NCBI GenBank assembly: GCA_037176725.1
Contig: JAZBRS010000049.1
Span: forward strand, 38,184,001-38,248,000
Length of the DNA: 64,000 nucleotides
From: Posidonia oceanica
Lineage: Eukaryota; Streptophyta; Magnoliopsida; Alismatales; Posidoniaceae
Direction: 5' to 3'
Made by a program: the position numbers and the translations under genes. This document shows, in pieces, positions 31,500-63,600 of this stretch. Under the pieces are notes generated by a model. That model did no database searches. It was not told where the DNA came from and saw only the letters and a program-made list of their open reading frames with translations. Every line of letters starts with the position of its first letter. The stretch's first letter is position 1.

Positions 31500-31837
31500 G
31501 TTAGACGCCGACCGTTACAGCGTCCAACATTAGACGCTGGGAGAGCCAGCGTCCAACGACACTCCGAGGCAAAGATGCCAAGATCAAAGAATATTCCTCA
31601 ATAAGTGGTTGATTAATGACCATTAAAACCCATTAAGGCCTTGACCGGTCAAAGGACACTTAGTGGAGGCAAAGTACGAAATTTGATTTTAGCCAAATAT
31701 GGCAAGTTTGGGGAAATTGAAAACCAGGTTGTTGGACGCTATGAATCACAGCGTCCAACGTTGGACGCTAGACAAGCCAGCGTCTAACACCCTCAAATGG
31801 AACTTGTTGTTGGACGCTATGGCATACAGCGTCCAAC
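31500..31837 (-). repeat. 29-bp dyad modules in the 3' LTR of B (GGACGC type)
   Basis: Pairs at 31500-31557 and 31731-31788 (58 bp each) and a single at 31809-31837 (29 bp). Arms GTTGGACGC or GTTAGACGC with GCGTCCAAC; loops differ (for example TATGAATCACA and TATGGCATACA). The abutting pair at 31731 forms an 18-bp perfect palindrome GCGTCCAACGTTGGACGC at its junction. Confidence 0.85.
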
Positions 31838-31996
31838 ACACTCAAATGGAAACTTGCCAATTTTGGCCTCTCAACCACAGGGACAGGTGTCAATAAGTTT
31901 GATGAGAGTACTTGAGCTGAGAAAAGAGCTTCTAGAGGTGGCCTAATGCAACAGACTACACTACCATGAAGGGAGTGCCAAAACGGGGTATCTACA

Positions 31997-32011
31997 GATT
32001 GCCGCTCCTTG
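31997..32011 (-). other. Polypurine tract of element B
   Basis: Minus strand CAAGGAGCGGCAATC directly before the 3' LTR; shares the AAGGAG core with C and D. Confidence 0.55.
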
Positions 32012-32169
32012 AAGATGGCTTTGGCACGAAGCTATCTACAAGACGAGACGATACCCTCGTGTGGCACTACCTGAAGATCCTAAATGAAATCCAATGCCTG
32101 CTGCCACCAGGCTTGGACGGGACACAAAGAGGGTCGGCTAAAGAAACATGGCCAAGGGGAACAAACTAA

Positions 32170-32330
32170 CGACATGCCGCGGGGATGGCCCGCAGGGGTC
32201 AAACTAAAGACACTGCCACGGGGGTTGCCCGTGAGTTCAAACTTAAAAGACATGCCATGGGGATTGCCCGTGGGGGTCAAACTAAAAGACATGCCACGGG
32301 GATTGCTCACGGGGGTCAAACTAACAGGAT
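32170..32330 (-). repeat. Tandem array, unit about 40-48 bp, in B
   Basis: Four units containing gacatgccacggggattgcc and ggtcaaacta. Each unit carries an inverted repeat of the type CCACGGG..CCCGTGG, imperfect in the first copy. Confidence 0.75.
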
Positions 32331-32930
32331 GGATAGCTAATGATTCCGACGACCACTCAATGCCAATGCAATACAAATGCGAATGCAATACAATGCACTA
32401 TGCATGGATGCGTGCTGACGGGAATGCAAAAAGGGGTCATGATATGCAATGCATGACCCTAGGTAATGAGGTTCCTCCATCATCGCCGACTTTAATTTGT
32501 ATACTGGGTTGGCTCAGGAATTTTTCTCACCACCCAAGGTGGACTGACACATGCGTGAATGCAATTTGTCATGATCAGGTGCCCTTTCCTCGGGTGTAGC
32601 CTACACTCTGCCAGGGGACCGTCGTCTCATGATACGCGGGTTGGTGAGCGAGAGGTCCATGATGCTCCCAAGCAAAAGGGGAAATAACCTCTTCTCTGCC
32701 AACCACGTTGGCTCTATTCGTCACAATTAGGTGTCCTTTCATTGAATGTTGCCTACATTCTTAACAGAAACCGTCATCTCGTGACCCGGAATCAATGAAC
32801 AATGAGTCCATCGATACCGTTGGCGTTATTCGTCAGAATCAAGTGTCCTTTCATTGAATGTTGCCTGCATTCTCGGTGGGGACCATCATCTTCTGACTCA
32901 GGAGTTAGTGAATAGTGGGTTCGGTAATAC
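32331..32930 (-). repeat. Three imperfect repeats of about 130 bp in B
   Basis: Related stretches begin near 32560, 32705 and 32825; shared words are aggtgtcctttcattgaatg, ttgcctacattct and accgtcatct. A related single copy lies in D near 20660-20740. 32331-32560 has no gene; it is rich in aatgcaatac words. Confidence 0.6.
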
Positions 32931-33800
32931 CGTTGGCTTTGCTTTGTTGACCCGGTTATGCTCCGGGGATCTTTCTGCTAATTGGTTTGCTTTGTTTGTC
33001 CGGTTGTGCTTCGGGATTTGCTTTGTTTGTCCGGTTGTGCTCCGGGACTTGCTTTGTTTGTCTGGTTGTGCTCTAGGGTACCTGTTTTTGATTGGTTTGC
33101 TTTGTTTGTCCGGTTGTGCTCTGGGGTTTGCTTTGTTTATTCGGTTATGCTCCGGGGCTTGCTTTATTTGTCCGGTTGTGCTCCGGGCTTGCTTTGTTTG
33201 TCCGGTTGTGCTCTAGGGCTTGCTTTGTTTGTCCGGTTGTACTCCGGGGCTACCTGCTTTTGATTGGTTTGCTTTGTTATCCCGGTTATGCTCCGAGGAT
33301 CTTTCCTTGGTAGGTTTGCTTTGTTATCCCGGTTATGCTCCGGGGATCTTTGCTTTGGTGTCCCGGTTATGCTCCGGGGTACCTGCTTTTGATTGGCTTG
33401 CTTTGTTTGTCCGGTTATGCTCCGGCGATCTTTCCTTGGTAGGTTTGCTTCGTTATCCCGGTAATGCTCCGGGGATCTTTGCTTTGGTGTCCTGGTTATG
33501 CTCCGGGGTACCTGCTTTTGATTGGCTTGCTTTGTTTGTCCGATTGTGCTCCGGGGTTTGCTTTGATGTCCCGGTTAGGCTCTAGGGTTCTTTGCTTTGA
33601 TGTCCCGGTTATGCTCCGGGGATCTTTGCTTTGGTATCCCAGTTATGCTCCGGAGTTCTATGCTTTGGTGTCCCGGTTATGCTCCGGGGTTCTTTGCTTT
33701 GGTGTCCCGGTTATGCTCCGGAGATCTTTGCTTTGGTGTCTCAGTTATGCTCCGGGGTTCTTTGCTTTGGTGTCCCGGTTATGCTCCGAGGCTTGCAAAC
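32931..33800 (-). repeat. Tandem array, unit about 34 bp and longer variants, in B
   Basis: About 22 units built on cccggttatgctccgggg plus a T/G-rich spacer (tctttgctttggtgt, or tgctttgtttgt). The core is itself an inverted repeat (CCCGG..CCGGG). Long open frames across this stretch are a by-product of the repeat and are not called genes. Confidence 0.85.
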
Positions 33801-33844
33801 TTACCGAGGGGATTGCCCAAGGAGGAAAACAAAACACTTAAAAG

Positions 33845-34290
33845 ACTTGAGCTAGATCAAACATCCAACACTCAGGGAAAATGAGCTGGATCAGACATCC
33901 AACACTCAAGAATTGAGCTGGGTCTATCCAACACTCAGGGATTGAGCTGGATTTGTCCAACACTCAATGTTTGAGCTGGATTTATCCAACACTTAAGGAT
34001 TGAGCTAGACTTATCCAACACTCAAGGTTTGAGCTGGACTTATCCAACACTCAAGAATTGAGCTGGATCTATCCAACACTCAAGGATTGAGCTGGACTTA
34101 TCCAACACTCAAGGTTTGAGCTGGTTTTATCCAACACTCAAGAATTGAGCTGGACTTATCCAACACTCAAGATTTGAGCTGGATTTGTCCAACACTCAAG
34201 GATTGAGCTGGATTTATCCAACACTCAAGGTTTGAGCTGGATTTGTCCAACACTCAAGGATTGAGCTGGATTTATTCAACACTCAAAGAT
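33845..34290 (-). repeat. Tandem array, unit about 30 bp, in B
   Basis: About 14 units of the type gagctggatttatccaacac plus tcaaggatt. Each unit contains the inverted repeat CTCAA..TTGAG. Confidence 0.88.
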
Positions 34291-34694: not shown

Positions 34695-34830
34695 ATTGGA
34701 CGCTACAAGCTTCTACGTCCAACATATGACGCTAGAATGGCTTGCGTCCAACGTCTAACTGTCACCCGAGGTGTAGGACGCTGCTCGTTACTGTGTCCAA
34801 CGTATGACGCAAAGGAGGATAGCGTCCAAT
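34695..34830 (+). repeat. Two pairs of 29-bp dyads upstream of the PMD gene
   Basis: Pairs at 34695-34752 and 34773-34830 (58 bp each). Arms ATTGGACGC or GTAGGACGC with GCGTCCAAC, partly eroded (ACGTCCAAC, TGTCCAAC). They end just before the CT-rich leader of the PMD gene, so they would lie in its promoter or at its transcription start. Confidence 0.75.
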
Positions 34831-35135: not shown

Positions 35136-38100
35136 ATGCCGAGATTTGGTAAAGCCTACATGAGGCCAAAGAAGTTGGCACGGAGGGGGGATGGCCCATC
35201 AACGTCCAGTGAGTCTGGGCCAGCTCTGGTGAGGGTGCTGAAGGCAGTCAGGATGACGGAGGAGGTGATGGCACCGGGTATGACGGAAGAGGCGGTAGTT
35301 GAGATGCCGGAGGAGGTAGTGGCACCGGTAGACATGCCCGAGGCGGCAGCTTGTGCCATGGAGAACAAGGAGGTGGTGGCACCGGTAGACGTGCTCGAGG
35401 CGGCAGCTTGTGCCGTGGAGACCGAGGAGGTGGTGGCACCGGTAGACGTGCCCGAGGTGGCAGCTTGTGCCGTGGAGACCGAGGAGGTGGTGGTACCGAT
35501 AGACGTGTCTGAGGAGACTGAGGCGATGAGCGCCTCTGGTGGCTTGGAGGATTCTGATTCTTCAGCCACTCTCGGCAAGGATTCAGAGGAGTCGGGGTCG
35601 GAGGAGGAGGTTCCCGAGGCGGTCCCCGCTGCTACTGCTGGGATGGCTAAGGATGACAGCTGGTACGTGAGCATCCAGGACTTTGTTCGGCGGGAGGCAG
35701 AGGGTGACGCTGGTGCTCCTCCAGACTTCACACGGGCTCATATACCGCACGACGAGGTACAGGCTTCGGCACCGCGCAGGGATGCGGCCCGGGCCGAGTT
35801 TGTAGTAGCTGCACTGGCGGCTAGGGGACAGGTAACCATATTTCCATTCAATTTCAAATATTATTTTTGTGCACTTTGTCTGACAATTCTTTTCTTTCTT
35901 GCAGAGTCGGGCCCCTGCCGTCGTGCGCTGTCACTGGGGTCAGGTCCTCAGGTGCTACCAGATGTTGGAGCCTTTCCAGCACGAGCGGCTTCGGCAGATG
36001 GGGTTTGGACACTTCCTGTCCATTCCTCTCTTCCAGCTTGAGTTGGGGCTTCCAGAGTCTGCAGCAGAGCGCTACCACCCTCACACTAGCTCTTTTGTGA
36101 CCCGAGTTGGCGAGTTTGTCCTTTCGCTGGAGGACATGGCCCAGCTGACTGGCCTACGGGTGACGGGACGCCTGGTGACTGGCCCAGTACACTTTGACTA
36201 CACCTCTATGATGCCGAAGTTGGTGGGGAGACGGGTCATCATGTACGGGCCCCGCCTTTTTGTTACTACCTCGGCGGTTCAGCGTGTCGAGGACTCCCGA
36301 GAGACAACGACGGAGCCTGGGGAGGACGCCGATCAGCAACTCCACGCCTTTCTTCTAGTTTTGTTTGGGGACTTGCTTTTCAGCCACGCCACCTCGCGGG
36401 TTTCAGCGGCGTTCCTACCCCTGCTTGCCGACTTAGATCGAGTAGGGGAGTATGCTTGGGGAGCTGCGAGCCTAGCATTCTTGTACACTGTGCTCTTCAA
36501 GTTCTCCGATGGTAGTTCCCATCAGCTTGGCGGGAACCTACCATTCTTTCAGGTATATAAACTTTATTTGCTTATTTAAGCTTCAAATATTACTTATTCT
36601 GCATGCTCGATTGATGATTTGCTTTCTTTTTACTTGCAGATGTGGGTATGGGACCACTTTACTTTCATGAGGCCCATCCCACCTTCGGTTCCTGAGGCGG
36701 GTATCCCCTTCCCACGTGGACTGCACTGAGGTCTGGCTGCTCATGCACCTGAGGCGGTCACTGGCCACCACTACGTCGGGTGTCTCTTCTTCGAGATGCT
36801 AGTTCCTGCCTAGGTAATATGCCCCTACTGATATATTATTCTTCATTTGGGTTTACTGATTCACTGCATGCTTTTCAGGTGACCTGGCATCCTTACGCCG
36901 AGGGGGAGCACGAGGATGTCCCTGAGATAGCTCGGGACCGGACAGTTTTTGACCGGGACATCTGGCTCCATTGCTGGAACCACTACCACTTCCAGCAGAT
37001 CAGCCGGGCACTTAGGTAGTTGGGACTCCAGCAGATTCAGCCTCAGGCCCACCCGTTCCGAGTTTGACGTGAGGTACGAGGGGGAGGTGGTCGTGCTTGC
37101 CACTAGGTTGACACCTACGGTCCACAGTTGCTGGACTGGGTTCGTGGTGGCTCCACCACTCCTGTTGACACGACCGCTGAGGACGAGCTGGCTTGGGCCA
37201 AGTGGATGGATGACCGGTTTAGTGAGCTCATGGTCTTCCATCGCTCTCATTTTCTGGGGCGGTCGAACCTTCCCATGGGTGACACCGCTCCAAATGTGGC
37301 AGTGATGGCTGTGGGCGAGCTACAGGAGTCCGTCCGCTCTCACAGGATTCAGATGGAGATAGCGATGAGCATTTAGCTTTATGTTTGTATTGCCTGTATT
37401 TCTTGACAGCTAACTTGCTTGGACCTTGCCCCTTGCAGTTGAGGACTACTGACGAGTATAGTAAGCACGAGCGCGACCTGGTTAGGTGCGTTGCTGAGCT
37501 GACTGAGGAGGTTGAGCGTCTGCAAGCCTCTGCATCTCAGGTTTGCATTTATTTTTATAGCATAGTTGTCTGCCTTGAAAATTGTGCTAAGTACGCCTTC
37601 TTTGCTTTTGCAGCCTTCGACTAGTTCTGCCCCTCCACCGGGTCATGCCGAGGTGATTTCCCACCTTTAGAGTATAGTAAGTATAGCAGTATACTTCCCT
37701 TTATATTTCTTGATTCAGTTCTGACTATAGCTCCGGCTTTTGCAGATTGACGATCTTCAGCGGGAGTTGGAGCGGACTACGGCAGGTGCCTTAGAGCGTG
37801 CTTTACGCGTTGAGGGGCAGCTGGAGGAGGTGCGTCAGCTTGCTGAGGAGAGGGCTGCTGAGATTGCCTGGCTTGCTGCACAGCAGCAATCCCTACCGAC
37901 GACTGATTCAACTATAGAGATTGCCGAGCTGAGGAGGCAGCTGGAGGTGGCTTTGAAGGTATAACTTGTTCTTCTTCCTTTTAAGTTCATATGCTTGCTT
38001 ATGCTAACGGCTTGATGCTTCTCCTTTGTCTTTTCTTGCAGGAACGAGATGCAGATCGTGCGATGGCAGCTCAGTTCGAGACCAAGGCGATGCATTACCG

Positions 38101-38338: not shown

Positions 38339-40707
38339 TTGTTGCTATTCTCTTTTTCTTTTCAGCACTTGTACCTCAGGGGTATGCCCCGGTGATATTG
38401 TAGAAAACTCAGATTTATAAATGACAAATATTTTCTGCACACTTAGCAAATTGTCAAATGTCTTCTTTTTTCTTTACCTTTCTCTAAGTTGAAAATGAAC
38501 TAAGATAACCAATAGCCGGGGGAGCACCTCCAACTAATGGCTTTTAATTCAATTTAACTTGAAACAAGCTTAATTACGTGTAATAATATGCAAATGACAG
38601 AGTTATGAAAAAAAATTTCACCTGCGAGCTTTAATTCTGAATTCCACGGCCGTTGGCGCTTTAATAAATTAATAACTTAATGTAAACAACAACAGGTGAT
38701 TCTGGATGGCTGGAAGGTCCAAAAAATATGAAACCAACTCCCACACGTGTATTTCAACTTGTAGAAGCATCTGGAACTGGTGGAAATTGGTTTGGCAACT
38801 TGTCCGAGGATTTGGAAGCCCATGAGTGAAGTTCAGCAACTTAAGTTGCTGAAAAACGTTGGACGCAACTGCCACTGCGTCTAACATAGGACGCTAGCAA
38901 AGGTAGCTTCCAACAACTCTTTTTATTTTTTCTTTTTTTTTGCTACGTTGAACGCCAGAACAGGTGGCGTCCAATATATGACGCCAGAACATGCTGTGTC
39001 CAACAACTCTTACTTATTTTTTTCCTTTTTTGCTACGTTGAACGCCAGAACAGGTGGCGTCCAATATATGACGCAAGCAACTGCTGCGTCCAACATATAA
39101 CAGAAGCTTTCTGCAAAGAAACTTAAACAAAATCATATTAGACCATCTAGGGTGCCCTTTGCCCCTAGTCCAAGGATAAGAATAATGAATATGTACATGT
39201 ATTACTTGAAATAAACTTAGATGGAAGATAATAAATTTGGCCTCAAATTTGTTGTCTACATGAAGATGGTATCGACTCGCAAGCGAGTACCAAGTGACCA
39301 TCCTGAATAGGAGTGGTCAAAACGCGACGCGGAGTCGCTAGTGCCCTAGATTTTTTATCATTGGCCAGATTTGTTATCAATTTCATGAGGTGATGTTGGT
39401 TGGGTAGATTTTACCCTTATCCTTTTTTGATCTTTTTGCTTATTTTTTGGATTTTTGGTTTTATGATTTTTTTTTGGATTTTTGACTTTATCTTTTTTTT
39501 GGATCATTTTTATCATTTTTTTGGATTTTTGACTTTATTATTTTTTGGATTTTTGACTTTATCTCTTTTTCCTTTTTTTTTGACTTTATTTTTTTGGGAT
39601 TTTTGACTTTATCATTTTTTTGGATTTTTGTAGGAGAAGAAGAATCTTCCAAGAAGTTGGGAAAAAAGAGACCTCATGGTTGGAAAACCTTGACAGTTTG
39701 GTCCCTTGTGCAATCTCAGAGCCATGCATGCTTCAGGCTTGCTTTGGCGCCTAACAATCTCTAAACCTAGGCTTCTGCCCCTTACCTCTTAGTGTACAGT
39801 GTAGGATATGGATAGAAGGAAAGCCCATGCCCTATCCTAAGATGTCAGTTGAAGATTTGAAGCCTAAACCCCTCCTAGTTCAAGGTTGATTCCTACTGTG
39901 CTTAGTATTTCCCAGCTTTCAGTTTTTGACTCTTGGACAGCTTCTTTGCTGCCGTCTTTTCCACTCTCTTTCTTTTTCCTTGCACATGGACAGCTTCTTT
40001 GCTGCCTTCTTTTCTGACCTTTTTTTGATTTCTTTTCTTTGTACTTCGGCAAGTAGTCTCACCCCTTCTGAGTGCTCGGTCAATGGATACTCGTTCCTTG
40101 ACGAACCGAGACACTCTTTTTATTTGGTACACTCCCCTCTTTTCTACGCTTCTAGGTTTTGACTTTAGATGTCTACCCAATTTGTACTAGGGTAACGCGC
40201 CTGACTCGAGGGATGTGTGTGGACTTGTTATTCATGAACTGGGAGGGGGCTCCTTATGATTTGCCTCTATATCAGTGTTGGATCATTTCCTTTCCTCCTC
40301 CCACAAAGTGTTTGTGGGGTGAGGCTAAGGTATGACTCCTAGGCTTTGGAAATAGTAGGTCCTCAAGCACGGGCAATCTAGTAGCTCTGTGTGCATGTCA
40401 AGGATAGTACCTTTTGAGGTGCAATGCACTCCAGAGATATACAAGCTTAGTGCCATTGCCCGGATATGCCCCAACCACCAAGTATATCTTTCCCAATTCG
40501 GTTCTCAAGTTCCCAGGCTAGGGTGGTGAATCTTCTTCTCATTTGTTTATATTTATATTTTTTGGAAGGAAAAGATATTTTATTTAGGTATATTTTAGCA
40601 GAAACAAATATGAAAATAAGGAAGGAAAAGTTTATTTATAACACTTTGGGGAAATGCCCCTAGTATAGCCTCCATCAGTAGAGACTCTTGAGAAGACGGC
40701 TTCAGTC
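38339..40707 (-). other. Non-coding stretch of B between gag and the PMD gene
   Basis: No gene seen. It contains three dyad pairs (38858-39094), a T-rich run of repeated ttttggatttttgactttat words (39420-39640), and words ttctttgctgccttctttt shared with D. The PMD gene's 3' end is at 38338; no clear polyadenylation signal was established. Confidence 0.6.
38858..39094. repeat. Three pairs of 29-bp dyads downstream of the PMD gene
   Basis: Pairs at 38858-38914, 38947-39004 and 39037-39094. The last two and their poly-T spacer are a 90-bp direct duplication. Arms GTTGAACGC with GCGTCCAAT, and ATGACGC with GCGTCCAAC; loops of the duplicated pair's second module already differ (cagaacatgct against aagcaactgct). 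Confidence 0.8.
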
Positions 40708-42228: not shown

Positions 42229-44290
42229 TTGGCTGATCTTCTCTGGTTTCTGCTTAAGTTTTGTTACAGCAAGTATTGGACGTAGACAGCAGCAGCGTCC
42301 AATGTATGATGCAAGATACAGTAGCGTCCAACACCCCTGTCTTCTATTGGTTGGTTTAACCAATGCAATTAGTGCTTGATTATGCAGAAATGACTACCAC
42401 AACTCCCTGGAACACCCTCCTTGTATTTTTGAGTTCAATCTTGGCAAATGGCAAGCGATGGATGTGCCGATTAGCTCTGAAGTGAAATGGCAGTGTAGGA
42501 CACTGGAGCAAGTAGCGTCCTATGTTGGACATTTACAACAGAAACGTCCAACACTTCCAATTGCCTCCTGGCCTGTCTTTGTGCAACCAATTGTTCCTTT
42601 GAGAGATATTTTTCTTAATGAACTAAAATCCCTGTGCTTTTGGGGATCACAGAGCCATACAAGGACTTTCTTTTTTTTTCTTTTCTCTTTTTTTCTTTTT
42701 TTCTGATTCTTTTCTTTCTTTTTTATTTTTTTTCTTTTGCTTCTCTTTTTTTCCTTTTTTTTTTCCTTTTTTTCTGATTTTTCTCTTTCTTTTTTTTGCT
42801 AGTGAAGGGAAAAGAAAAGAAAAAAATATATTACAACTCTTACACTTTGATAGACAAAAGAAAGAAAAGCAACAAGACCTACAAAAGTTCTTTACAACCT
42901 ACTACAAGTACTTAAAAAAAAGAAAAGGACTCAAGATAAAGTTTAAGTGACTTGTTTATAACCCCTGTTCAAACATTCATCTTGTAGCATTCAATAATTC
43001 TACAAAATAACCAAGCAATAACAGGAATAAACAGAGAATGTGTTGGACGCACATAGTTTCCACGTCCAACGTAGGACGCAGGTAGTTGTAGCGTCCAACA
43101 CCTTGTAACAGAGAGCTGCACAGAAACACTTTCAAAGAGCGATTAAAAGCTTTGATTTTTGGATTTCGCTTTGTTATTAGTGTTTTAAACTTGCATGACT
43201 CTCAAGGTTCCTTAAGGCTTAGGTATGGCTTTTTTTGGATTTTCTAAGGCTCCTCACAAGATGGGTGAATATGATTGGTACTACCCCCTACCTCAACTCC
43301 TGAGGATGCTAGGGGGAGCCTGAATACACTTAGGTCCCTACCCCGTAGAGGTAGAGCCCAGCGTACTCGGGATTGATCAGGTCACTCACGTATCCACACA
43401 CAGAAGAAATAAACAAACCACCGAAAGGGGGAGAGAGGAATACAAGTCTAGACTTGGGATTCTAACTTACTTTCACACAGAGCAAGGGAAGGAAGAGTGC
43501 CCCTTGTGAAAGCAAGTGACAACACAAACACCTCTCTTAAGCCCTTTGCAACAGAGGTGCTCAGGATTTAAGTGGTTATTTTGTATAATCCAAGAAGAGA
43601 CACAATCAAATTAGTTCCCAATCAAGGACCATACAAGTCACAAGGAAAACTCGATTTTTATTTGGATTTTCGAAAAGCACCCAAGTATTAAGGTTCCGGT
43701 TCCTACGGCAAAGCCGATCACCTCACACCTCGTTCCTTGGGTTAGTTATAAAAAGAAAACAAAAAGAAGATTTAAAAACAGAATGAATCCTGTCCAGATG
43801 TGTAAGACGCAAGGAGTATTAGCGTCCAACACACAGACAGGAGATATTTTTTTTTAGAAAACTAAAACAAGAGACTTTTTTTTTCTTTTTTTTACTCAAA
43901 CACCCATTTATTCCCGAGAATTAGAACAAAAGAAAGGGGTGGTTGCATACTTTTTTTCTACATAAAAAAAAACTAACAGAAGAAATTGCAAAAGAAAACA
44001 GAAAACTGGCCAGAGGTGTAAGACGCTGGAACAGGCTGCGTCCTATGTTGGACGCTGCCCAGCACAGCTTTCAACGCACTGACAGACCAGACTTATTTAA
44101 ATAAGAGGTAGAAGCATGCTTTTTAGTGCATAATTAAAGAACAAATACTAAGAAGGTCGTGGTGCCTCAAAACACTATGAGGAATTTTGCCACGACCTCG
44201 AAAAAAAATCCGCAAAAGTAAATGAAAGATTGCAAAGGGAAAGAAAGAAAAAGAAGAGAATACTAACCTAGCACGGGGGCATTTTTAGCG
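42229..44290 (-). other. Untranslated leader of element B
   Basis: No gene seen. It holds four dyad pairs and one single (42275-44075) and a pyrimidine run on the plus strand at about 42662-42800, which is polypurine in the element's RNA. Other poly-A or poly-T tracts lie near 43855-43890. Confidence 0.6.
42275..44075. repeat. 29-bp dyad modules in the leader of B
   Basis: Pairs at 42275-42332, 42495-42552, 43042-43099 and 44018-44075 (each 58 bp) and a single at 43802-43830 (29 bp). Arms include ATTGGACGT, GTTGGACGC, GTAAGACGC with GCGTCCAAC or GCGTCCTAT. Loops are unrelated to one another. Confidence 0.8.
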
Positions 44291-45824: not shown

Positions 45825-47520
45825 CATTACCAATCCTTTTTCGATTGATAAGTCTGAAACTTATCTATTCTCTTTTCCGACCGATAAGTCCGAAACTTAT
45901 CTATCCTCTTTTGCGGTTGATAAGTCCGAAACTTATCTATTCTCTTTTCCAGCTGATAAGTCCGAAACTTATCTATCCACTTTTGCGGTTGATAAGTCTG
46001 AAACTTATCTATTCCCTTTTCCGGCTGATAAGTTCGAAACTTATCTACTCCCTTTTCCGGTTGATAAGTCCGAAACTTATCTATTCCCTTTTCCAGCTGA
46101 TAAGTTCGAAACTTATCTATCCTTTTTTGCGGTTGATAAGTTTGAAACTTATCTATTCCCTTTTCCGGCTGATAAGTCCGAAACTTATCTATCCGCTTTT
46201 GCGGTTGATAAGTTCGAAACTTATCTATTCCCTTTTGCGGTTGATAAGTCTGAAACTTATCTATTCCCTTTTTCCAGCTGATAAGTCTGAAACTTATCTA
46301 TTCCCTTTTCTAGCTGATAAGTCCGAAACTTATCTATTCCCTTTTTCGGTTGATAAGTCTGAAACTTATCTATTCCTTTTTCCAGTTGATAAGTCCGAAA
46401 CTTATCTATCCTCTTTTGCGGCTGATAAGTCCGAAACTTATCTATTCCCTTTTCCGGCTGATAAGTCTGAAACTTATCTATCCTCTTTTGCAGTTGATAA
46501 GTCCGAAACTTATTTATCCTCCTTTGCGGTTGATAAGTCCGAAAATTATCTATTCCCATCTCCGGCTGATAAGTCCGAAACTTATCTATCTCCATTTCTG
46601 GCCGATAACTTCAAAACTTATCTATTCCCTTTTCCGGCTGATTAGTCCGAAACTTATCTATTCCCATTTCTGGCTGATAAGTCCGAAACTTATCTATCCT
46701 CTTTTGCAGCTGATAAGTCTGAAATTTATCTATTCCCTTTTCCAGCTGATAAGTCCGAAACTTATCTATCCTCTTTTACAGTTGATAAGTCTGAAACTTA
46801 TCTATTCCCTTTTCCAGCTGATATGTCTGAAACTTATCTATCCTCTTTTACGGCTGATAAGTCCGAAACTTATCTATTCCCTTTTCCAGCTGATAAGTCC
46901 GAAACTTATCTATCCTCTTTTGTGGTTGATAAGTTCGAAACTTATCTATTCCCTTCTCCGGCTGATAAGTCTGAAACTTATCTATCTCCATTTTCGGCCG
47001 ATAAGTTCGAAACTTATCTATTCCCTTTTCCGGCCAATAAGTCCGAAACTTATCTATCCCTTTTGCGGTCGATAAGTCTGAAACTTATCATATCATCCTC
47101 TTTTGCGGTCGATAAGTCTGAAACTTATCATATCATCCTTTTTTCCGGTCGATAAGTCCGAAACTTATCAAATCATTCCTTTTGCGGTCGATGAGTCTGA
47201 AACTCATCAATTCTGGTTGATAAGTCCGAAACTTATCTATTCTGGTTGATAAGTCTGAAACTTATCTATTCTGCCTGATAAGTCCGAAACTTATCTATCG
47301 CCTTTTCCGAGCGATAAGTCCGAAACTTATCTATCTCCTTTTCCGACCGATGAGTCCGAAACTTATCTATTTCGGTTGATGAGTCCGAAACTTATCTATT
47401 CCGGTTGATGAGTCCGAAACTTATCTATTTCGGTTGATGAGTCTGAAACTTATCTATTTCAGTTGATGAGTACGAAACTTATCTATTTCGGCTGATAAGT
47501 CCGAAACTTATCATATCATC
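45825..47520 (+). repeat. Tandem array of about 48 hairpin units in the 3' region of C
   Basis: Unit of 36 bp for most of the array, shorter (about 28 bp) after 47200. Every unit carries GATAAGTCCGAAACTTATC, a 7-bp inverted repeat with a 5-base loop, followed by a pyrimidine-rich spacer (tattcccttttccggct). Loop variants are ccgaa, ctgaa and tcgaa. Because 36 is a multiple of three, long open frames run through it on both strands; I do not call them genes. Position before the polypurine tract fits the variable 3' repeats known in Tat elements. Confidence 0.95.
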
Positions 47521-47890: not shown

Positions 47891-50453
47891 TGTAGACACC
47901 CCGATTTTTTAGTTCTTCGTCAGCAGTTTTCTCCCAGGAATGTGCTCGGTCGTGGCGGCCCCCACCTTATCCAAAACCCAAACCCAAACCTAAGCCTTGT
48001 CCAAAACCCAAGCATAAACCCAAGCCTAATCCCAATATCAAGCCTAATCCCAATACCAAGCCTAAACCCAAGCCTCATCCTAAAACCAATCCCAATACCA
48101 AGCCTAAAACCCAAGCCTAAGCCCATTCCAAGCCCAAGCCCAACCAAAAAAACAGAAAAACATCCAAAATCTACTCTGGGTCGTTGGACACTGGATATGC
48201 CCGCGTCTTATGTAAGACGCAGAAATTCTAGCGTCTAACACCGCCAGTCTCTTTGGGGCGTAAGACGCTGCTTGAACAGCGTCTTATGTAAGACGCAGCT
48301 CAGATACGCGTCTTACACACCGGGACTAACAGAGCTTGATTTTGGGATTCCAATCAACTCTCAAGTGCAAATACCTTTGTGCCCTCCATCTAGAACATAT
48401 TTCCGGCCAAATCCCACGTCCCCTCGTTTCCACTTCAGCTGTTACACCCATGCAAACCAAATAAAAGCCTTTCTTCTCCTCCATTGAAGGGGACGCACCC
48501 ATTATCCTGAAAAAAAAAGATTCCAGAGCTTGACCAGGACGAAAGCACCTGAATTGCTACATCTCCGACCAACCAATAACCTCCCCAGAGCCCAACCAAG
48601 CCCTCCAGCCGCCACCATTGCCACTACAACTTCTGGGAAGACTCCGCCAGCAAAGGGAAGCCACACCAAACTTCACAACAGGTAGGTGCTCTCCTCCCTA
48701 TAGCTTAGAATCATATTTTCCTTGTCAAATATGTTTATTTCAATGCATGAAGTTTGAATTTGCATGAGTTCTTTCCCTGTTTTAGACTTTTTATTTAACT
48801 CCGTTGTTGGGTTCTGGCCTCGTGAGGCCTCCGGCCATTGAGCTCAGTTGAGAACCCAGTCATCCCCGCGTGTGCCATGCCACCTCGCCATCTTCCCCAA
48901 ACCTCCACTGAGCTTCATGGACGTGTACCATGGCTTCCCGGCCTTACAATGGCCAGAGAACCCATTGGAATCCAGCAAGAGGCAAGTGGAGGTGGGGAGG
49001 ACAGTTTGGACGTCTATTTTTATAGAAATTGCATGTTTATGTTCGTGGATGTCTATTCTTGCTTGTGGAATGATTTTTTTTTGGAATCATTTCGATTTGA
49101 ATGGATTCTTAATCTGAATGCTCTGTCAGAGCATTGGACGCTGAGTCTGGTGCGTCTTACGTAACACGCTGCCAAGGCTAGCGTCCAATGCCCCTGATAT
49201 TGATTTTTCATATTTTTCTTCATAAAATGTTTGGAATACTTCAAAATATCTGATTTGTGATGCATACTGGGATTTTGATCCATTCTTATCATATTTTCAT
49301 CATTTAAAATATTTAAATAAAACAAGTTTTATTTCCTGAGTTTTTAATCTAAAAAAGAATGACTTAGGTGTAAGACGCTGGAAATCACAGTGTCTTACGT
49401 AGGACGCTGGAAATCACAACGTCTTACATTTCTGTCCTCTTTTTTTTTCCTATTTTACTCATCAAAAGAGATCTTATTGATTCATTGAGATCTGACATAA
49501 GTTGCATGCTTGTGTTTAACTTTATTCAAGTTGTTTTTCTGGATTTATAATATTTCTCTGGGATTATTTGGCCACAATTAAGCAATCTGTTTCCTCTGGG
49601 TGTAAGACGCTGCAAAAGTCTACGTCTTATGTAAGACGCAATGCCTATAGCGTCTTAGATCCCAGATAGTTATTTTTCTGAAATAACCTTTTAAAATGCT
49701 TAAAAAATGTTTTTAAATGATTTTGGAGTTTGATACTGGAAGGCATATCATGATTTACATCATGTTCCAGTTGATTTTCATGATTTCTATGATTTGAGCA
49801 TAAGATTTATTTAATTCCAGATTGGCCATATTTTACACCTGGATTTTCTATGTTAGATGCTGGATCTTATGCGTCTTACATAAGACGCTGGGAATCCCAG
49901 CGTCCAACATCTCTAGTAAACTGAACCTTGTTTTGCAGTATTACAACATTGGTTTTGGGTCTGTTTACTTTGATTTTAATCATCCAATATGATTTGCATG
50001 TCTACAGTGTTTTGAGGCATTTAACTTTCACTTTTGGCATATTTCAAAGATTTTTAGCATGTTTTCAAAAGGCATGCAGCATATTTTCATTTGGCATGGC
50101 ATTATCGCCTTTGGGCGTATAACAAATGGCATCATTGTCGACATTAGCCACAAACGAGCGGAATAGCCCAGAAAGACCGATTCTCTCGGGCGCATGGGGC
50201 TGCCTAACACCGTCCCCATGCGTAATAGGAGTCCTTGCCCGATCTCTGGCCCGTAATGACCATGTGTCATATCCTTTGCATTTTACTTATTTTACATGTT
50301 TTATTTGATTTTTCTTGTCTTCTGGTTTTCCAAATAGACTAGGTGGTGACTCCAAATTTTGTTTTCTTTTCTTCGGCCTTCACCCGTTTTCTTCATCTTT
50401 TTGCCGTGACCAATGGTTCGGCTCACACCGAGCCGTTCGGTCGCATGGTTACA
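47891..50453 (+). repeat. 3' LTR of element C
   Basis: 2563 bp from TGTAGACACCCC to GGTTACA. The first 240 bp contain a run of degenerate cccaagcctaa words (47960-48130). The remainder aligns with 9817-11447. A possible TATA-like AATAAAAG lies at 48460. A sequence resembling a leader with a splice donor, CAACAG|GTAGGT, occurs near 48681. The conserved U5-type block is at about 50195-50245 and AGGTGGTGACTCC near 50340. Confidence 0.92.
48183..49908 (+). repeat. Six pairs of 29-bp dyads in the 3' LTR of C
   Basis: Pairs at 48183-48239, 48260-48316, 49133-49189, 49370-49427, 49602-49657 and 49852-49908. Arms are mainly GTAAGACGC and GCGTCTTAC, with GTTGGACAC, ATTGGACGC and GCGTCCAAC variants. 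The best hairpin is at 48260: GTAAGACGCTG, loop, CAGCGTCTTAT. Confidence 0.85.
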
Positions 50454-50460
50454 CTAATAA

Positions 50461-50474
50461 TTGGTATCTGAGCC
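50461..50474 (+). other. Primer-binding site of element G
   Basis: TTGGTATCTGAGCC, one mismatch from the TGGTATCAGAGC site complementary to initiator-Met tRNA used by plant copia elements. Confidence 0.8.
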
Positions 50475-50512
50475 TTATTCATCCATGATTAAGATTTAAT
50501 CATTTTCTAGAT

Positions 50513-51912
50513 ATGGCTTCTTATTCATTTAATACTCGCATTGTTGAGGGTCAAAGCATTTATAGACCATCATTCTTTGATGGATACAATTATAACTATT
50601 GGAAATGTAGAATGGTTATATATTTAAAATCAATTAATCTTGATTTATGGAATATAGTTGTAAATAGGTACACTCCTAGTAAAAAACATTATAAGGAGTG
50701 GAATGAAAATGAGAGAAATTTAGCTACTTTAGAAGCTAAGGGATTAAATATCTTGTTTTGTGCTATAAATGAAGATTAATTTAATTATATTTCAAATTGT
50801 ACCACATCTCATGAAGTGTGGCATGTTTTAGAAGTTACTCATGAAAGAACAAGTCAATGAAATGTTTAAAATGCAACATATGAATCTATTGGTGATATAT
50901 TTACAAGATTTAGTGAGATCACTAACAATTTGCATTCTCCTGGTAAAACTTATTCTCAAAGTGATTTAGTTAGAAAAGTACTTAGATCTCTTACTCCAGA
51001 TTGGAGAAGAAGACTACCGCTATCGAGGAAGCAAAGGACCTCTCTATATATTCCTTAGAAAGCCTCATAGGAAATCTCACTTCCTATGAAGTACAAATGA
51101 AAGAGAAGGAATTTAAAGTTGTTCCAGAGAAGAAGAGTATAGCGTTTAAAGCCTCTTTTGAGTCGGATGATTCGAAGGATGATCTTACTTTTATCACTCA
51201 CAAGTTCAAAGATTTCTTAAAGGAAAGAAGAGTTCAAAAGAAGGACAAAAAGGGCAAATGAAAAATCAAGAAAAAGAAGGCTCTCCAAGCAACTTGGGAT
51301 GATAGTTCAACCGATGAAGAAAGTTCATCCGATGCTGAAGTGCTCACTCATGCTTTATGGCTACCTCTAGTGAGCTATCATCTTTAAATAATATTGAAGA
51401 TTTTTCTATAGATAATTTATTTGATGCTGTTAATGAGCTTTATTTGAAATATAAATCTTTGAATGGTAAATGCAAAAGTAAAAACAAAAGCTTTATTGAT
51501 ATATCTCTTAAAAAGAAATTAATTTCAAATGAAAATGATGAATTGAGAAGTAGGAACAAAGCATTTGAAATAGACAATGATGTTTTGAAAAATGAGTTAA
51601 ACATTATGAAAAGAAAAATTGATATTTTAGAAAATGACATTGCATCATTAAAAGTCAAAAGTGAAAGTTTGCTTATTGATGTTATTAAGTTTACACTTGA
51701 GAAGAAATCTTTTGATGTAAGGAAGCATAGAAGTGTAAATATGCATAGAAAGATTAATCCATATGAAAATGATTACGTTAGAGCTAAAAATAATGAAAAA
51801 TATGAATTTATCATTAAAAATGTAGAAAATAGAAGATAGAATCCAAAAGTCAAAAATAAGTGGATTCCTATGACTAACACATTTAGACCCAAGATAAAGT
51901 GGGTACCAAAAT
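50513..51912 (+). pseudogene. Copia gag of element G (degraded)
   Basis: Open pieces at 50513-50779, 51001-51261 and 51357-51839. The N-terminus SIYRPSFFDGYNYNYWKCRM matches the start of plant copia gags (PxFDGxNYxxWKxxM). The middle part has LEVTHERTSQ, FTRFSEITNNLHSPGKTYSQ and LRSLTPDWRRR, the UBN2-like gag core. The last piece is a predicted coiled coil (NENDELRSRNKAFEIDNDVL ... LENDIASLKVKSESL), and the C-terminal words NPKVKNKWIPM and KWVPKSL resemble SIRE-type gags. No zinc knuckle was found. Stops and at least two frame changes separate the pieces. Confidence 0.78.
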
Positions 51913-57525: not shown

Positions 57526-57526
57526 G

Positions 57527-57841: not shown

Positions 57842-60653
57842 TGTAGTAATCTCGGAATTCGGATCGTCCATGCACGATGCCAAAGCTCGCGTGCACCAAT
57901 CGGAATCAGGTTCACTATTAGCGGGTTGTTCCAAGGAAGGACTTCGACTCGAAAACACTGGAAAGCAGGGGCGAATACGAAAGGAAAGCAAAATAAAAGA
58001 AAAGGGAGTCGCCACCTAATTTATTAAATCGGGAAAACTAGGAAAACCAGGTAAAGAACATGCAAGGAAAACATATGTTTTTCGAAAGCATGCAAAGTTC
58101 AATGTAAATGGATGACACAAAGTCAATGCGGTCCAGAGAAGAAGGTAAGGACTCCTATTACGCGCGGGGAAAGTGTTAGGCACCCCCGACACGTCCGAGG
58201 AATCGGTCTTTCTAAACTGATCTGCTACAGTGTGGCAGAATGTTGGCACGAAGCGTCGGTTTATATACGCCCTAAGGCGATATGCAAGATGCAATTTATA
58301 AACCAATGCAAAGCTTAGCAAAAACCTTGTTTAAATGTAAATAAGCGAAAGCAAATTGTTGCAAAGAAGTGGAAAACAGCAAGAATGCGAACTGAAAACA
58401 AAAGCATGGCAGAAATCAAGTGGGGAGCGAAAAGAGGGGCAGTTCTATGCTCTGTCTGGTTCAGGGCTCCGGCGCCGGTTCGGTAGGTACCCCTGCTAGT
58501 CGCCGGTGAGGCCGACGGTAGGCTAGCTCCCCAGCCATAAATGGCAACAGCCACAAAATGGGTGCAAAAAGTGATGTAAAACCCAAAATAAAAACAAGGA
58601 GGCACAAAAGACATGTTGGAAAGCAAATCCATAGAAGGAAACAGATCGGGAATCAAAGCGACGAGGCGGCGAAACCAAGGCTAAGTCACTGCCGGATGGT
58701 GGAAGGAGTCACCATCTGTATGGGCGGCTATGCCAGTCGCCTCTTGGACTGGCGACAGAAAGCATTCCTCCTTCTACTCAGGCAGTGGCGGTCATCGCCA
58801 TGAAAGGGACGGCAAGGCAGCAGCTCGCTCGCAGTTGGGGACTGCAAGCTTAGTCGCCTGACGGGAAGGCGCCCAAGATAGGCGCCACTTCATCAGGCGA
58901 CAGGGATGCTCACAGTTCTCCCACACAGCGGCTTTCATCGTCGGAAACGAGGTAGGAAAACTTGTCGAAAACAGAAACCAACATCGCAGAGCTAAGCAAG
59001 GCTCAACGCAGAAGAAAACACATTCATCGAATTTACAAACAGGTGAGTGGACCACAAGATATGGAGGCCGGAAGTTGTGTCGGAGGTCAGACCTGAGTTG
59101 CAGGTCAGTCACCTGCTATGCAGGCGGCTAGGATGCAAACCAAGCTGCCGAAACTGCCAAATTCCCGGCCAAATCTTGGACCCACGAGCTAACTAAATGA
59201 AAAACCGAATATACAGATATGAAGAGCATTCATCCATGATCAAGTAGAAACAATAATATTGCAAAATGACCATGTGAGGAGCAAGATAACAAGGTCATAA
59301 GTTGGTCGGAGACTGACCTGAGTTGCAGGTTAGTCGCCTGCCAGGTAGGCGGCTAAAGTGCAACTCAGGCAGTCCGAACTGCCAACTTCACGGGCATATC
59401 CTGGCCTCATCGGCGAATCAAACGGCAAACTGAACATGTAGACATGCAAAGCATACAACAGGGAATAAAAGCATACAATCAAAAAGTAGGAGGGGACCTC
59501 GAGGTGGCCGGAGCGACACCTCAAAGTCGGGCCGGCAGACTAGCTGAGTCACAGCTCAACTGCCGGTCAGGCCGGCGCCTGACCTAGTCGTGGGTCACAA
59601 CGACGACTGGCCTGGCAGTCCAATGGCCGAACTTCCAAGCCGAAATCCGCCACAATGGCAAAGCCTAAATCTGGAAGAGGGTCCAGGAAGCATGGCCTCA
59701 CTTCTAGGAACCCAACCGTACCTTCGACATGGAGAAAGGTGGACCAATGTGGTCCACCCACCTACGTCGCCGTGGTCTGCCGTCCTCCGCCGGAAACTGG
59801 CCACACATGCAGCCGAGCACGCGGGGAAGAGGCGGGGAAGGTCCACGGCATCGAGGCAAAGGGGATGGTGCATGCTAGAGCCAAGGAAGGAGGCTCGTGC
59901 CTCCATTCCCCATCCACCGGCAGCTCACCAGAGTGGCAAAACGGCCACGGCCATTAGGCCGACCGAGGTCGCAGGGGAAGAAAGTGGAAGGGGGAGAAAG
60001 GTGGGAGGTCTGGGAACATTTCTCGGCCCTCAAACCACCAAGGTTGGAGGTGCACCAACCTGTAGAGCTCGCTGAAGTTGCTACCGGCGAAGGAGGACGT
60101 CGCCGGACTGACGCCGGAGCTGGAGAAGAAGGTGTGGTAGTGGCTTGTCTGGGGCTTGGAAACGCTCGGAGATTGTCGACCTCGCACTGGGGAAGCTTGC
60201 GAAGGCTCGGGAGAAGGTTCAATTTCACCCTAGAAGCTTGGGAGTGGAGTTGAGGATTTTCTCAAAATGGGAAAAGGTGTTGGGTTCAATGGCAAAACTT
60301 GGTTTTGTTCGGGTGGCTTCTCCACGCCCGAGGCCGAGAGATCAGAGGCGTGCGGAAGGGGTGTCAGTGAGGGCGTGTGAGTGGGAACGGTCGCCGAGGA
60401 AGTAACTGCAACTTGTCGTCTAGTGCGTGTCGGGGAACGGCTAGTAAGTGTGATGTGACAAGCGGTCGCGGTGGCAACGGTCGGCAATGGTGGTTGCCGA
60501 AAGGGAAGCTTGCGCACAGCTTCTGAGTTGCAAGTGAGTCGCCGCATGGCATGGCGCCTAATCGAGTCACCCCTGCTGCGTCACCTGTTAGTGCCACTCA
60601 GTAGCTGGGCGGGAAAATTCGGACGCAGTCTGAGTTCCAGAGAAGTCGCCACA
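57842..60653 (-). repeat. LTR E (Tat type), cut by element F
   Basis: Minus strand ending GATTACTACA at 57842, matching the end of LTR F (63974-63983). It contains the shared block (58143-58190) and GGTGGCGACTCCC (near 58007-58019). No primer-binding site follows the end, so this is a 3' LTR or solo LTR; its 5' end lies beyond F. Open frames at 59590-60550 are short, overlap on both strands and have no recognisable domain. Dyad modules of the AGTCGC type are spread through it. Confidence 0.78.
58704..60591. repeat. 29-bp dyad modules in LTR E (AGTCGC type)
   Basis: Modules near 58704-58732 with 58732-58760, 58849-58877 with 58877-58905, 59104-59132, 59329-59357, and 60534-60562 with 60563-60591. 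Arms such as GTTAGTCGC and GCGGCTAAA, or GTGAGTCGC and GCGCCTAAT, around 11 bases. The one at 59329 sits inside a larger hairpin with outer arms CTGAGTTGCA and TGCAACTCAG (59318-59368). Confidence 0.7.
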
Positions 60654-63600
60654 TGTAGACACCCCATTCTGACAGCCTACAGGTTGGTTGTTCTCTTTTG
60701 CAGGCTCGTGTGGACTCTAGAATGGCATCCCTTTTCTAACCCATTTTTTTAACCCATTTCCAAGCCCAAAACCTTGCCCTAACTCTAGAAGCCTTAACCT
60801 AAGCTATTTGCAACTTTTACAACCCTTCTAGACCCAAGCCGAAGCCCATTTGCAGCTTGTGCCACCTGAGTGTGTTGGACGCTGGAATAGGCAACGTCCA
60901 ACGTTGGACGCGGCCTGTGCTAGCGTCCAACGTTGGACGCCCTCTGGTCTGGCGTCCAACGGCTCGGGTGCAGCAGCGGCTGCTCCGCCCCCTTCGGCTC
61001 ACTACCCGTCCACTCCACCGCCTCCCTGCACTTACTACCCGTCCCTCCTCCACTCCACACCATCCACTACCTTCCAAGCTTGAGTAACTATCCATCTCCT
61101 CCCCACCAGTGCCTAATCTGCTCTCTAAGCCCTCACTGCCATTGCTGACTTTCGTCGCCCATGCCTGCCACCGCCCTGCCCTTGCCGGACTTCTGACACC
61201 TCCCATGCCCTCCTCTGACATCCCTCGTGGGCTTTCCACACTCATCCACACCTGCCAATGCCTGAATTTGCCAAAATTTGGCCTGCAAATCTGACCAGCC
61301 AGCACTCGAACCCATGCCCAGCTGAACAAAACCAGATGTTAATGCCATTCTAGCATTCACCACACCGAGCCAGAAGAGAATTTGCCACCTCCAGAGCGTA
61401 GAGTGCATTCCCCTCTCCATCATCGACCAGTTGCCGACCTCTCCGGAGCTCCGAGCACCTCGAAAGACCTCACCAAAGTAGCTGCTGCAGACACACCCGC
61501 AACTCTGGCAAGCAAGGCGGAGCCGCCATTCTAGGCCACCAAACGGTAAGCTTCCTATTTCCTTTAGTCTTGCATGCTTAGTAGTACGTCCCCATGCAGT
61601 TTTACATTTTTTTGAATCCTCTTGGTCGTGATTCGCGGCCAAGAAAGAGTTCAGTGTGTTGGACGCACCAGCTAGTGTGTGCAACATTGGACGCGGCATT
61701 GGCCGGTGTCCAACATTGGACGCCGGCTCTGTCTTGCCTTGCTCCTGCTTTGATGCTTTCCATGCTTTATCCTTGCATGCTTTTCTGTAGATCCATGCTA
61801 TATGCTTCCTTAAATGTTCTCTATTGTTATGCCATGCTTATTAGCTTGTTCCATGCTAGTTTAAGTCACCTTTGCATGCTTTAAGTTCCATCTGCTTCCT
61901 GCCTACGTTGGACGCCAGGGTGAGCCGCGTCCAACGTTGGACGTTGGTTCACCTAGCGTCCAACATATCTGCTAGCCGTAGCTTGTTGCCATGCCTACAT
62001 CTAGCCTATTATTGATGCTATTTCCTGATGCATGCTTGCTTAGAGATGCCTGGCCCCTATGGCACCCATGTTTAGGTTTGCTAGGTCTTTGCAAGTTGCA
62101 TGCTTTCATTTTGCAAGTTTAAATCCTATGTTCCTATGCATTTTCCCTCTTTGCTTTGTTCTCTTGGATTAAATGCTTCCTATGCATGTTCCTGTTTGCT
62201 CTTACAAGTTTCAGTAGCTTGTATGCATGTAGGTGGGGTCAGAGCTGAGCTCCCCCTTTAGAACAGGTAAGTTTGCATGCTTTGGTCATTAGGCGCCAGA
62301 GCCCCCAGCGTCCAACGTTGGACGCTGGTGGCTCCAGCGTCCAACGTCCTGGCTCCTCATCTTGTTGTTTGAAGCTTGCATGTCGTCCTGATCTTCTTGC
62401 TTGCCTGTCTTCTGCGTTTATATGCATGTCTAGCCTCAGTAGCAACTGTTCTCCAGCTTCCTTGAATTATTTTGACTATTTTATGCATGTTTTTTGTGTG
62501 TTGTGCCTCCTAGGGCGTTGTACGCTGCTGGTGCTGGCGTCCAACATTGGATGCGGGCCTAGGTTGTGTCCAACGACCTGGTTGTGTCTTTGACCTGGCA
62601 CAGGCCACAGGTAAGGTCTGATTGAATTTTTTTATGCTTCCCTTGTTTACTTGTTTGCCCCATGCTCGTCCCCAGTGGCCCAAATGCATGTACCCTTTTT
62701 TATTTTCTTTTGTATGCTCCTTTCTCTCCTCTGACTTATAATCTGTGTTGGACACCAGCCATTCTAGCGTCTAACGTTGGACGTCTAGCCTACATGCGTC
62801 CAACAACCTACTTGCCTTAATCTTGGATTCTGGCTTGCTCCTTGCTCTGATCCCTCTTCTAATCTTCTGTTAGGTTAGACCTGCATCTCCTGCACCCATT
62901 TAGTTGCATTCTTGCATCTGTATTGCATCCATATAGCTAGATTGCATTGTTTTTCCAAAATTGCATGCTGTTTGCCTCCAGCAGGTGTTGGACGCCAGCA
63001 ATGCTAGCGTCCAACGTTGGACGCTGTTGTTGCCAGCGTCCAATACTTGCAGATGGCTGACAGCCATTTTAAAGCGCCGATTTCGCTTCGCTCGTCGTTT
63101 TCTGCTTCTTTTCGCTTCTTTGGATTGCTGCAACCCCTATGCATGTTGCCCACCCCTTTGTTTTAGTTTTGCACCCCGTTTTGCCCCGTTTTCCATGTTT
63201 TGCATTGTTTTCCGCATTTGGCATCGCTTTTCCACTCCTTTGCATAGTTTTCTACGCCCTGTTGCATAGTTTTCTGCTCCTTGCCTTGTTTTCCGTGCCT
63301 CGCATTGTTTTCTGCATTTTCGCACCGTTTTCCGCACCTGTTTTGCTTTATCGCTTGCATTGCTTGGTTTCCTCGTAGTTTTGCTTTATCGCCTGCATCT
63401 GCATATAGGGCTATGATGCTTACTACTTAGGAGTTCTCACGAACCAAGGTCCGCCCAGTTCGGAACACTAGCAGCGTGGCTGAGCACATAGATAGCACGT
63501 TTATTTCCAATGCATAGTAGGTAAGCATTTTTGGCATTTAGGCATTAGGCTAGCAATTCCCTGCATTAGCACGAGATTGCCTAAGAAAGACCGACTCTCG

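Follow-up and report, generated by a model that had tools for sequence, protein, structure and literature searches.

Palindromic repeated motifs (RM boxes) have been described in the U3 region of the long terminal repeats (LTRs) of Ty1/copia Sireviruses (PMC2829016). Sirevirus RM clusters occupy the upper half of the LTR, beginning 200–400 bp from the junction of the polypurine tract (PPT) and the LTR, and stand upstream of TATA; the RMs form CpG islands, and further copies are located upstream of an additional (ENV) gene (PMC2829016). The same paper terms the RM Sirevirus-specific and absent from its classic retrotransposons, and it also names box I of Tnt1 (PMC2829016). The present work concerns a 29-bp palindromic unit (type 1) in a stretch of 64,000 nucleotides of Posidonia oceanica DNA (contig JAZBRS010000049.1, positions 38,184,001–38,248,000, forward strand), the whole of which is referred to as the window. 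The 29-bp units probably act as promoter/enhancer boxes in the U3 of Tat-like Ty3/gypsy LTR retrotransposons, where a putative multimeric protein would read them as duplex DNA; modules are often spaced about one nucleosome length apart. The U3 enhancer boxes of Tnt1 and Tto1 are likewise repeated U3 activator boxes, one of them palindromic; they belong to Ty1/copia elements, have other sequences and are single-family.

Comparison with described systems

The closest known kind of element is the Sirevirus RM box. Like RMs, the units are palindromic, occur in many copies per LTR and vary in sequence by family; they may also resemble RMs in standing upstream of the promoter region, in being CpG-rich and in having extra copies near an additional gene (PMC2829016). 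Type-1 modules are dyad-symmetric palindromic repeats, and their copy number, 15 units in LTR D and 12 in LTR A2, exceeds the eight copies per element asked of an RM; the host is not a Ty1/copia Sirevirus. Unlike Sireviruses, the elements in the window are Ty3/gypsy by gag, primer-binding site (PBS) and the order reverse transcriptase (RT), RNase H (RH), integrase (INT). The unit here consists of two 9–10 bp half-sites 9–11 bp apart and is mostly doubled to 58 bp, and the GTTGGACGC/GCGTCCAAC consensus lacks the CGG-CCG core found in 12 of the 13 RMs tabulated (PMC2829016). Where Sirevirus copies precede the ENV gene, the modules of element C precede antisense open reading frames (ORFs), one of which matches the plant mobile domain (PMD). 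An earlier note, made from the window sequence, had supposed that no feature with such a plan was described; with the Sirevirus U3 boxes on record, this is not supported (PMC2829016). Among the literature matches listed (for the most part the best 15–40 per list, from a collection without subscription papers or preprints), none concerns such boxes in Ty3/gypsy LTRs, as judged by title, opening of the abstract or individual passages. The 18-bp junction palindrome that the earlier note wished to see searched for does not occur in the best 40 of 171 papers matched and is taken to be absent from this collection, unless printed with a break.

Three further systems share some of these features. The palindrome CACCGGACNNNGTCCGGTG of maize Copia elements and Helitrons is also a single palindrome, present in element classes that are unrelated to each other and associated with the cis-regions of LTRs; it differs in sequence and plan, and according to that study Ty3 elements generally had no obvious structure peak (PMC10760457). 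The VANC target repeats of VANDAL elements are, similarly, short motifs that have multiplied in the non-coding DNA of their elements and differ as dialects from one related element to another; unlike the present units, they belong to DNA transposons, their binder is known, and that paper does not term them palindromes (PMC5735166). Retand/Tat elements resemble the host elements in their length, in their antisense ORFs and in the tandem repeats that separate pol from the 3′ LTR, whereas palindromic U3 boxes are not reported in the accessible sections (PMC11963269).

Structure and abundance of the type-1 unit

One unit spans 29 bp and is composed of two inverted half-sites, approximately GTTGGACGC, placed head-to-head 11 (or 10) bp apart; its best consensus is approximately GTTGGACGCTGG. 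The usual module is a pair of abutting units, 58 bp in length, with four half-sites and a tail-to-tail gap of 0 bp. With up to two mismatches, half-sites of the window stand head-to-head at 11 bp in 37 cases, tail-to-tail at 0 bp in 17 cases and in the same direction at 29 bp in 41 cases (18+23); 20 shuffles of the window gave 0–2 units each. A symmetric weight matrix (score at least 12) finds 51 units, whereas 30 shuffles average 0.1. Searching for four half-sites in order, with no more than 4 mismatches in 36 arm bases, returns 28 modules in the window and none in eight shuffles; the earlier observation is confirmed. A scan independent of arm sequence marks 43 places, which include 26 of the 28 modules, the remainder being mostly tandem arrays and simple sequence (0–3 places in six shuffles). 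A covariance model built from 18 modules recovers 28/28 when run on the window (the triplet in another register); it also picks up the singles and gives weak matches within LTR B. Positions 1–3 of the loop lean to TGG and positions 9–11 to CCA; the half-site therefore extends inward. The whole 58 bp was considered as a single long palindrome and this was rejected, loop 1 being only weakly like the reverse complement of loop 2 (p = 0.08). The second copy of LTR A (49133–49908) was excluded from this test, from the loop-position table, from the window gap list and from the mispair and arm-agreement counts given below. One further analysis excluded both that copy and the tandem duplicate at 39037.

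The earlier note had described a 9-11-9 module used in ones, twos and threes over 31500–63044. Its coordinates are exact: the singles at 43802 and 31809 measure 29 bp, the pairs at 31731, 38947, 42275 and 61907 measure 58 bp and the triplet at 60874–60960 measures 87 bp. All three forms exist, but the pair is the rule, with just two clear type-1 singles and one triplet; the units lie in the range given, and further ones are found beyond it, at 10137–10902. The 9-11-9 plan holds, but 9-10-9 occurs too, and the loop is partly constrained. Nine-base inverted repeats are in excess, yet the excess extends beyond loop 11; the specificity lies in arm sequence together with spacing. At 31770, 60921, 60942, 61917 and 63005 the module junction resembles what is taken to be a tRNA-Lys type primer site, with mismatches at 4 of 18 positions, probably by chance.

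The sample comprised 30 stretches of 10 kb (numbered with the prefix L) from four contigs of the same assembly, 22 of them from one contig; all 30 were analysed, and their G+C content is 45%. At no more than 4 mismatches there are 31 pairs in 8 of the 30 stretches and none in five shuffles of the whole sample; at no more than 6 mismatches, 40 pairs in 9 stretches. All but one of these 40 (L008:9918) were assigned to, or lie beside, sequence similar to the elements of the window. Single units at four mismatches number 135; three shuffles give 34–50, so this looser count is partly noise. The longer type-1 pattern has no match in bacterial or archaeal genomes, and the single unit has one match in viral contigs, where about one is expected by chance according to the authors' estimate.

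Location and spacing of the modules

The four pairs of LTR A1 (9817–11447, plus strand), which is the 5′ LTR of element A with its 5′ end cut at the boundary with element F and a PBS-like site at 11453, are located at 10137–10193, 10365–10422, 10596–10652 and 10846–10902. LTR A2 (47891–50453, plus strand), the 3′ LTR, directly preceded by a purine tract, carries modules at 48183–48239 and 48260–48316 in U3 and four more within 49133–49908 (at 49133, 49370, 49602 and 49852). LTR C1 (30714–31996, minus strand), the 3′ LTR of element C, contains modules at 31500–31557 and 31731–31788 and a single unit at 31809–31837; its TATA box lies at 31439–31445 on the minus strand. In LTR D (60654–63983, plus strand, its end set by TACTACA) the triplet is followed by modules at 61658–61714, 61907–61964, 62288–62345, 62517–62574, 62747–62804 and 62987–63044. 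Outside the modules, LTRs A, C and D show no mutual alignment except for an R-like block (A with D) and 31 bp where the LTR begins (A2 with C1). This supports the earlier view of a conserved palindromic unit in LTRs of different families, which otherwise hardly align. That the unit is independent of element type is not supported: 28/28 window pairs lie in LTRs A, C1 and D or inside element C. All 28 are assigned to Ty3/gypsy (Tat-like) LTR retrotransposons of two gag lineages.

The R-like block, common to D, E, A and F, contains GGTGCCTAACAC and has its start close to where TATA stands in E. Its sequence GGTGCCTAACACCTTCCC was found in the window at 11193, 50199 and 63611 (plus strand) and at 7805 and 58184 (minus strand), and at 20 more places in the sample; a tRNA-Arg-like PBS lies within 700 bp of 13 of these 25 sites. 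The block makes a good tag for this clade of elements.

Both limits of U3 are visible in six LTRs, namely A2, D and C1 of the window and L014, L019 and L031 of the sample. All of their modules (37/37) lie between the LTR start and TATA (C1) or the R-like block (the other five). The first module is found at +293 from the LTR start in A2, +221 in D and +160 in C1, and the modules of D and A2 extend past the upper half of the LTR. The type-1 module nearest to TATA is 54 bp away in C1 (31500–31557) and 64 bp away in L020. Type-1 modules stand upstream of 7 of the 25 R-like block sites, A1 and A2 being counted apart; modules listed before the LTR E block were counted with the adjacent D, and modules before the F block with the adjacent A1. 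TATA matches at 49024 and 10028 were set aside, as they are on the strand opposite to LTR A.

Gaps of 100–800 bp between modules of the window fall within 160–195 bp in 10 of 14 cases, five of them at 171–173 bp. In the sample 16 of 22 gaps of the same range do so; the 160–195 bp range was picked once the window gaps were known and then applied to the sample, and independent cases are fewer, because families repeat. Other recurrent gaps are 322–325 bp in D-type LTRs and 20 bp in five places. The DNA between the modules of A, C and D is mostly dissimilar (z up to 3.5); a clear duplication is kept in E. A gap of about 172 bp could hold one nucleosome.

Conservation and CpG content

Comparison of LTR D with its relatives in L010, L014 and L031 shows identity of 583/685 (85%) in the arms, 266/415 (64%) in the loops and 5585/7714 (72%) in the rest (arm vs rest, p = 3e-14). 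In the A family the arms are identical at 233/312 positions (75%), the rest at 1746/2552 (68%) and the loops at 61% (arm vs rest, p = 0.02); these pooled counts are of A1–L003, A1–L019 and the upstream part of A2 with L019, excluding the repeats A2–L003 and A2–L019. Module loops are less identical than their surroundings in A, C and D when compared with the sampled loci, though without change between A1 and A2. The observed/expected ratio of CpG is 1.04 in modules vs 0.41–0.63 outside them in five module-bearing regions, and the arms hold CpG sites. Such sites are expected to decay fast in methylated elements. The module thus described is real, repeated and at least partly constrained, and probably of promoter type.

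Probable promoter boxes and the alternatives

The mechanism proposed is drawn from the anatomy of the elements. A DNA-binding protein, dimeric or tetrameric and probably supplied by the host, would grip the half-sites as duplex DNA, and the bound factor would drive transcription from the LTR promoter. The distal copies of the module, about one nucleosome apart, would let factor-bound linkers alternate with nucleosomes.

A number of observations weigh against this reading. Nine of the 28 window modules are internal to element C, outside the LTRs: two before the antisense ORFs, three after them and four at the gag leader. The word TATA[AT]A, the stricter pattern, is absent from LTRs A1, A2 and D, TATA[AT] occurs within 200 bp upstream of the R-like block at just 5 of the 25 sites, and the nearest unit of the C-like LTR in L025 is 294 bp from TATA. 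Spacing cases inside one family are not independent of each other. The C family shows no arm excess (arms 124/169, 73%; rest 2749/3569, 77%; loops 53%; p = 0.26), and between A1 and A2 the arms are not better conserved (differences at 9/144 positions in arms, 0/85 in loops and 72/1401 in the rest). Among the mispairs of 60 oriented modules, read on the element sense strand, G-T (93) is somewhat commoner than A-C (77), though not significantly (p = 0.25). Arm covariation, scored as two hairpins in the alignment of 18 modules, is higher than in 499 of 500 shuffles, and in unit 1 the two partner arms agree more closely than permuted arms do (z = 3.12); a hairpin would be expected to give both.

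These last results bear on RNA hairpins, according to which the transcribed palindromes fold and feed small-RNA silencing or serve RNA packaging or dimerisation. The 28 modules fold better than shuffles on both strands (mean z −5.35 and −4.93), and when five 110-nt windows are folded for each module on each strand, the most stable one attains −40 kcal/mol in 21 of 56 cases, this value being the cut-off for maize microRNA-like regions (PMC10760457). Selection for pairing should, however, favour G-T clearly; as G-U has no significant excess over A-C, it is not clear that pairing in RNA is the property being conserved. Right arms, which have the same direction (R1–R2), agree equally well (z = 3.20), as family relatedness predicts; the corresponding values are 1.98 for the partner arms of unit 2 and 1.68 for same-direction left arms. 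The agreement of arms is read here as probably due to relatedness within families, superimposed on half-sites that are independent of each other in duplex DNA. Minimum free energy structures switch between two hairpins and one rod, the rod shows no covariation above shuffles, and Rfam gives no match at the gathering score in the window. U3 modules should, moreover, be transcribed mainly at the 3′ end, because they lie upstream of TATA or R. Folding RNA is considered a rather unlikely function of the modules.

The result for the C family, where arms are not conserved above their surroundings, would also suit a neutral by-product, that is, palindromic satellite seeds spread by tandem duplication and kept alike by gene conversion. 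In LTR E about 226 bp are tandemly duplicated, and the same elements hold other hairpin-bearing arrays; both observations point the same way. Against such an origin, the inter-module sequence of D is little similar while the modules stay alike, the arms exceed their surroundings in D and, modestly, in A, and U3 placement is strict; it is therefore regarded as improbable.

Host elements and internal modules

Element A is taken to begin with its 5′ LTR, which is truncated at 9817 by element F, to continue with gag, RT, RNase H and integrase and to end with the 3′ LTR at 47891–50453; elements B and C are nested inside it. Its RT (17383–18618) precedes RNase H/integrase (28216–29124), and the two are taken as parts of one element interrupted by the nested B. 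LTRs B1 (18666–20005) and B2 (26480–27819, with the PBS at 26474) are the 3′ and 5′ LTRs of element B, and LTR C2 (44312–45207) is the 5′ LTR of element C; all three are on the minus strand. Self-comparison gives LTR pair identities of 94% for A, 93% for B and 96% for C. The LTRs start with TGTAGA.A.CCC, and a purine tract precedes A2, B1 and C1. Element A has the gag, protease, RT-RH and INT order, the TG-starting LTRs and the purine tract of a Tat-like Ty3/gypsy element, with a protease match below the cut-off. The Pfam domain Retrotrans_gag matches elements A and B and is below the cut-off in C. The coding parts recognised are gag alone in element B, and gag and the PMD ORF in element C, where no pol is recognised. 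Elements A and F, with gag 55% identical and a PBS like the tRNA-Arg end, constitute lineage I; B and C, with gag 46% identical and the same 18-base PBS, constitute lineage II. Gag identity between the lineages is 21–36%. The tRNA labels of the PBS sites and the element-order rule for Ty3/gypsy assignment are taken as assumptions. The gag of element C has one protein relative, 62% identical over 58% of the query, and no relatives in viral contigs.

A tRNA-iMet-like PBS and an apparently copia-like ORF follow directly on A2 and had suggested that LTR A belongs to a Ty1/copia Sirevirus. This assignment was dropped: the PBS that follows A1, the order RT-RH-INT and the purine tract in front of A2 place element A in Ty3/gypsy. 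The region just past A2, 50454–51836, holds the iMet-like PBS and a presumably copia-like gag (weak Pfam match) with a coiled coil, starting 8 bp past LTR A2.

Besides its LTR, element C bears modules at 34695–34752 and 34773–34830, upstream of an ORF at 35136–36041 and of the PMD-matching ORF (35884–36576, plus strand; PF10536, E = 3.5e-27), which is antisense to gag. Further modules follow at 38858–38914, 38947–39004 and 39037–39094, the last being a tandem duplicate of the one before it. Another, at 42275–42332, overlaps the 5′ end of the listed gag ORF; those of the gag leader are at 42495–42552, 43042–43099 and 44018–44075, with a single unit at 43802–43830. This arrangement bears on whether the units are bound by an anti-silencing or regulatory protein that the element itself encodes and that resembles VANC; the antisense PMD protein of element C is one candidate. 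The nearer upstream module ends 306 bp before the first of these ORFs and 1069 bp (1.07 kb) before the PMD ORF, and antisense ORFs for whose products DNA binding is predicted are also known from Retand elements (PMC11963269). A role of this kind is thought unlikely.

LTR C1 contains a 384-bp module-bearing stretch (31474–31857) that has no counterpart in LTR C2 (at 45071), with ends that share CAA. This difference, together with the presence of the same unit in different LTRs, could suggest a tiny mobile element, resembling a miniature inverted-repeat transposable element (MITE), that inserts by itself. Nevertheless, much of the 384 bp is non-module sequence, its ends share CAA alone, and a deletion in C2 fits as well. 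No empty site of a single unit was noticed, though no systematic search was made, and the spacing and U3 placement are regular. Independent mobility of the unit is thus highly improbable. The C1/C2 difference with its shared CAA resembles the outcome of a microhomology deletion.

Other repeats accompany the modules in these elements. At 33897–34290, element C contains a 29-bp palindromic unit repeated 13.6 times, which has the words TCCAAC/TGGA in common with the module and is possibly a runaway relative. Tandem arrays with a 29-bp period also occur at 47185–47512 (hairpin-bearing) and at L012:8548–9213. Long arrays of short hairpins (GATAAGT...ACTTATC; CCGG...CCGG) lie at 45835–47371 and 32939–33796, in elements A and C.

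Type-2 boxes and the distribution of box types

LTRs B and E carry units of a second type with the arm GTTAGTCGCC and the plan 10-9-10, also 29 bp long and partly doubled. In LTR B1 they are located within 19307–19654 (at 19307, 19400, 19429, 19501, 19598 and 19626), the TATA box being at 19240–19246 on the minus strand, and in LTR B2 within 27121–27467 (at 27121, 27214, 27243, 27411 and 27439). Type-2-like boxes of LTR E lie within 58732–60562 (at 58732, 58849, 58877, 59104, 59329 and 60534); the tandem duplication of this LTR, at 59055–59457, takes in one type-2 box. The proximal type-2 box ends 58–60 bp from TATA in the seven B-type LTRs listed. That list is limited to TATA boxes of one pattern that have a unit no more than 700 bp away, and it omits the B1-similar stretches in L020, L021 and L025, so the seven cases have no unbiased denominator. 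Words similar to type 2 stand upstream of the R-like block in L013 and L023. In window LTR F and six sampled block sites (L007:7024, L012:4341, L015, L020, L027 and L028), no 8-base hairpins were found up to 2.5 kb upstream.

Type 1 thus occurs in lineage I (A and D) and lineage II (C), and type 2 in lineage I (E, with the similar words of L013 and L023) and lineage II (B); other lineage-I LTRs have neither. Since each type is found in both gag lineages and neither in some LTRs, box type is not tied to lineage. Exchange, convergence or loss could be behind this scatter. It is tentatively suggested that the box may be a portable promoter part passing between retrotransposon lineages, by which unrelated elements would come to be served by one trans-acting factor, whether encoded by the host or by an element, within a module–nucleosome–module scaffold.

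Implications

With the units regarded as promoter boxes, palindromic U3 boxes are extended from Ty1/copia Sireviruses to Ty3/gypsy elements, with a precise grammar of four half-sites, and the Ty3/gypsy elements that bear such modules recur across the sampled part of the genome. The recurrent gaps of 172 bp offer a testable link between the design of LTR promoters and nucleosome spacing. If one factor reads the four-half-site grammar across lineages, it would constitute a single switch for many families of elements.

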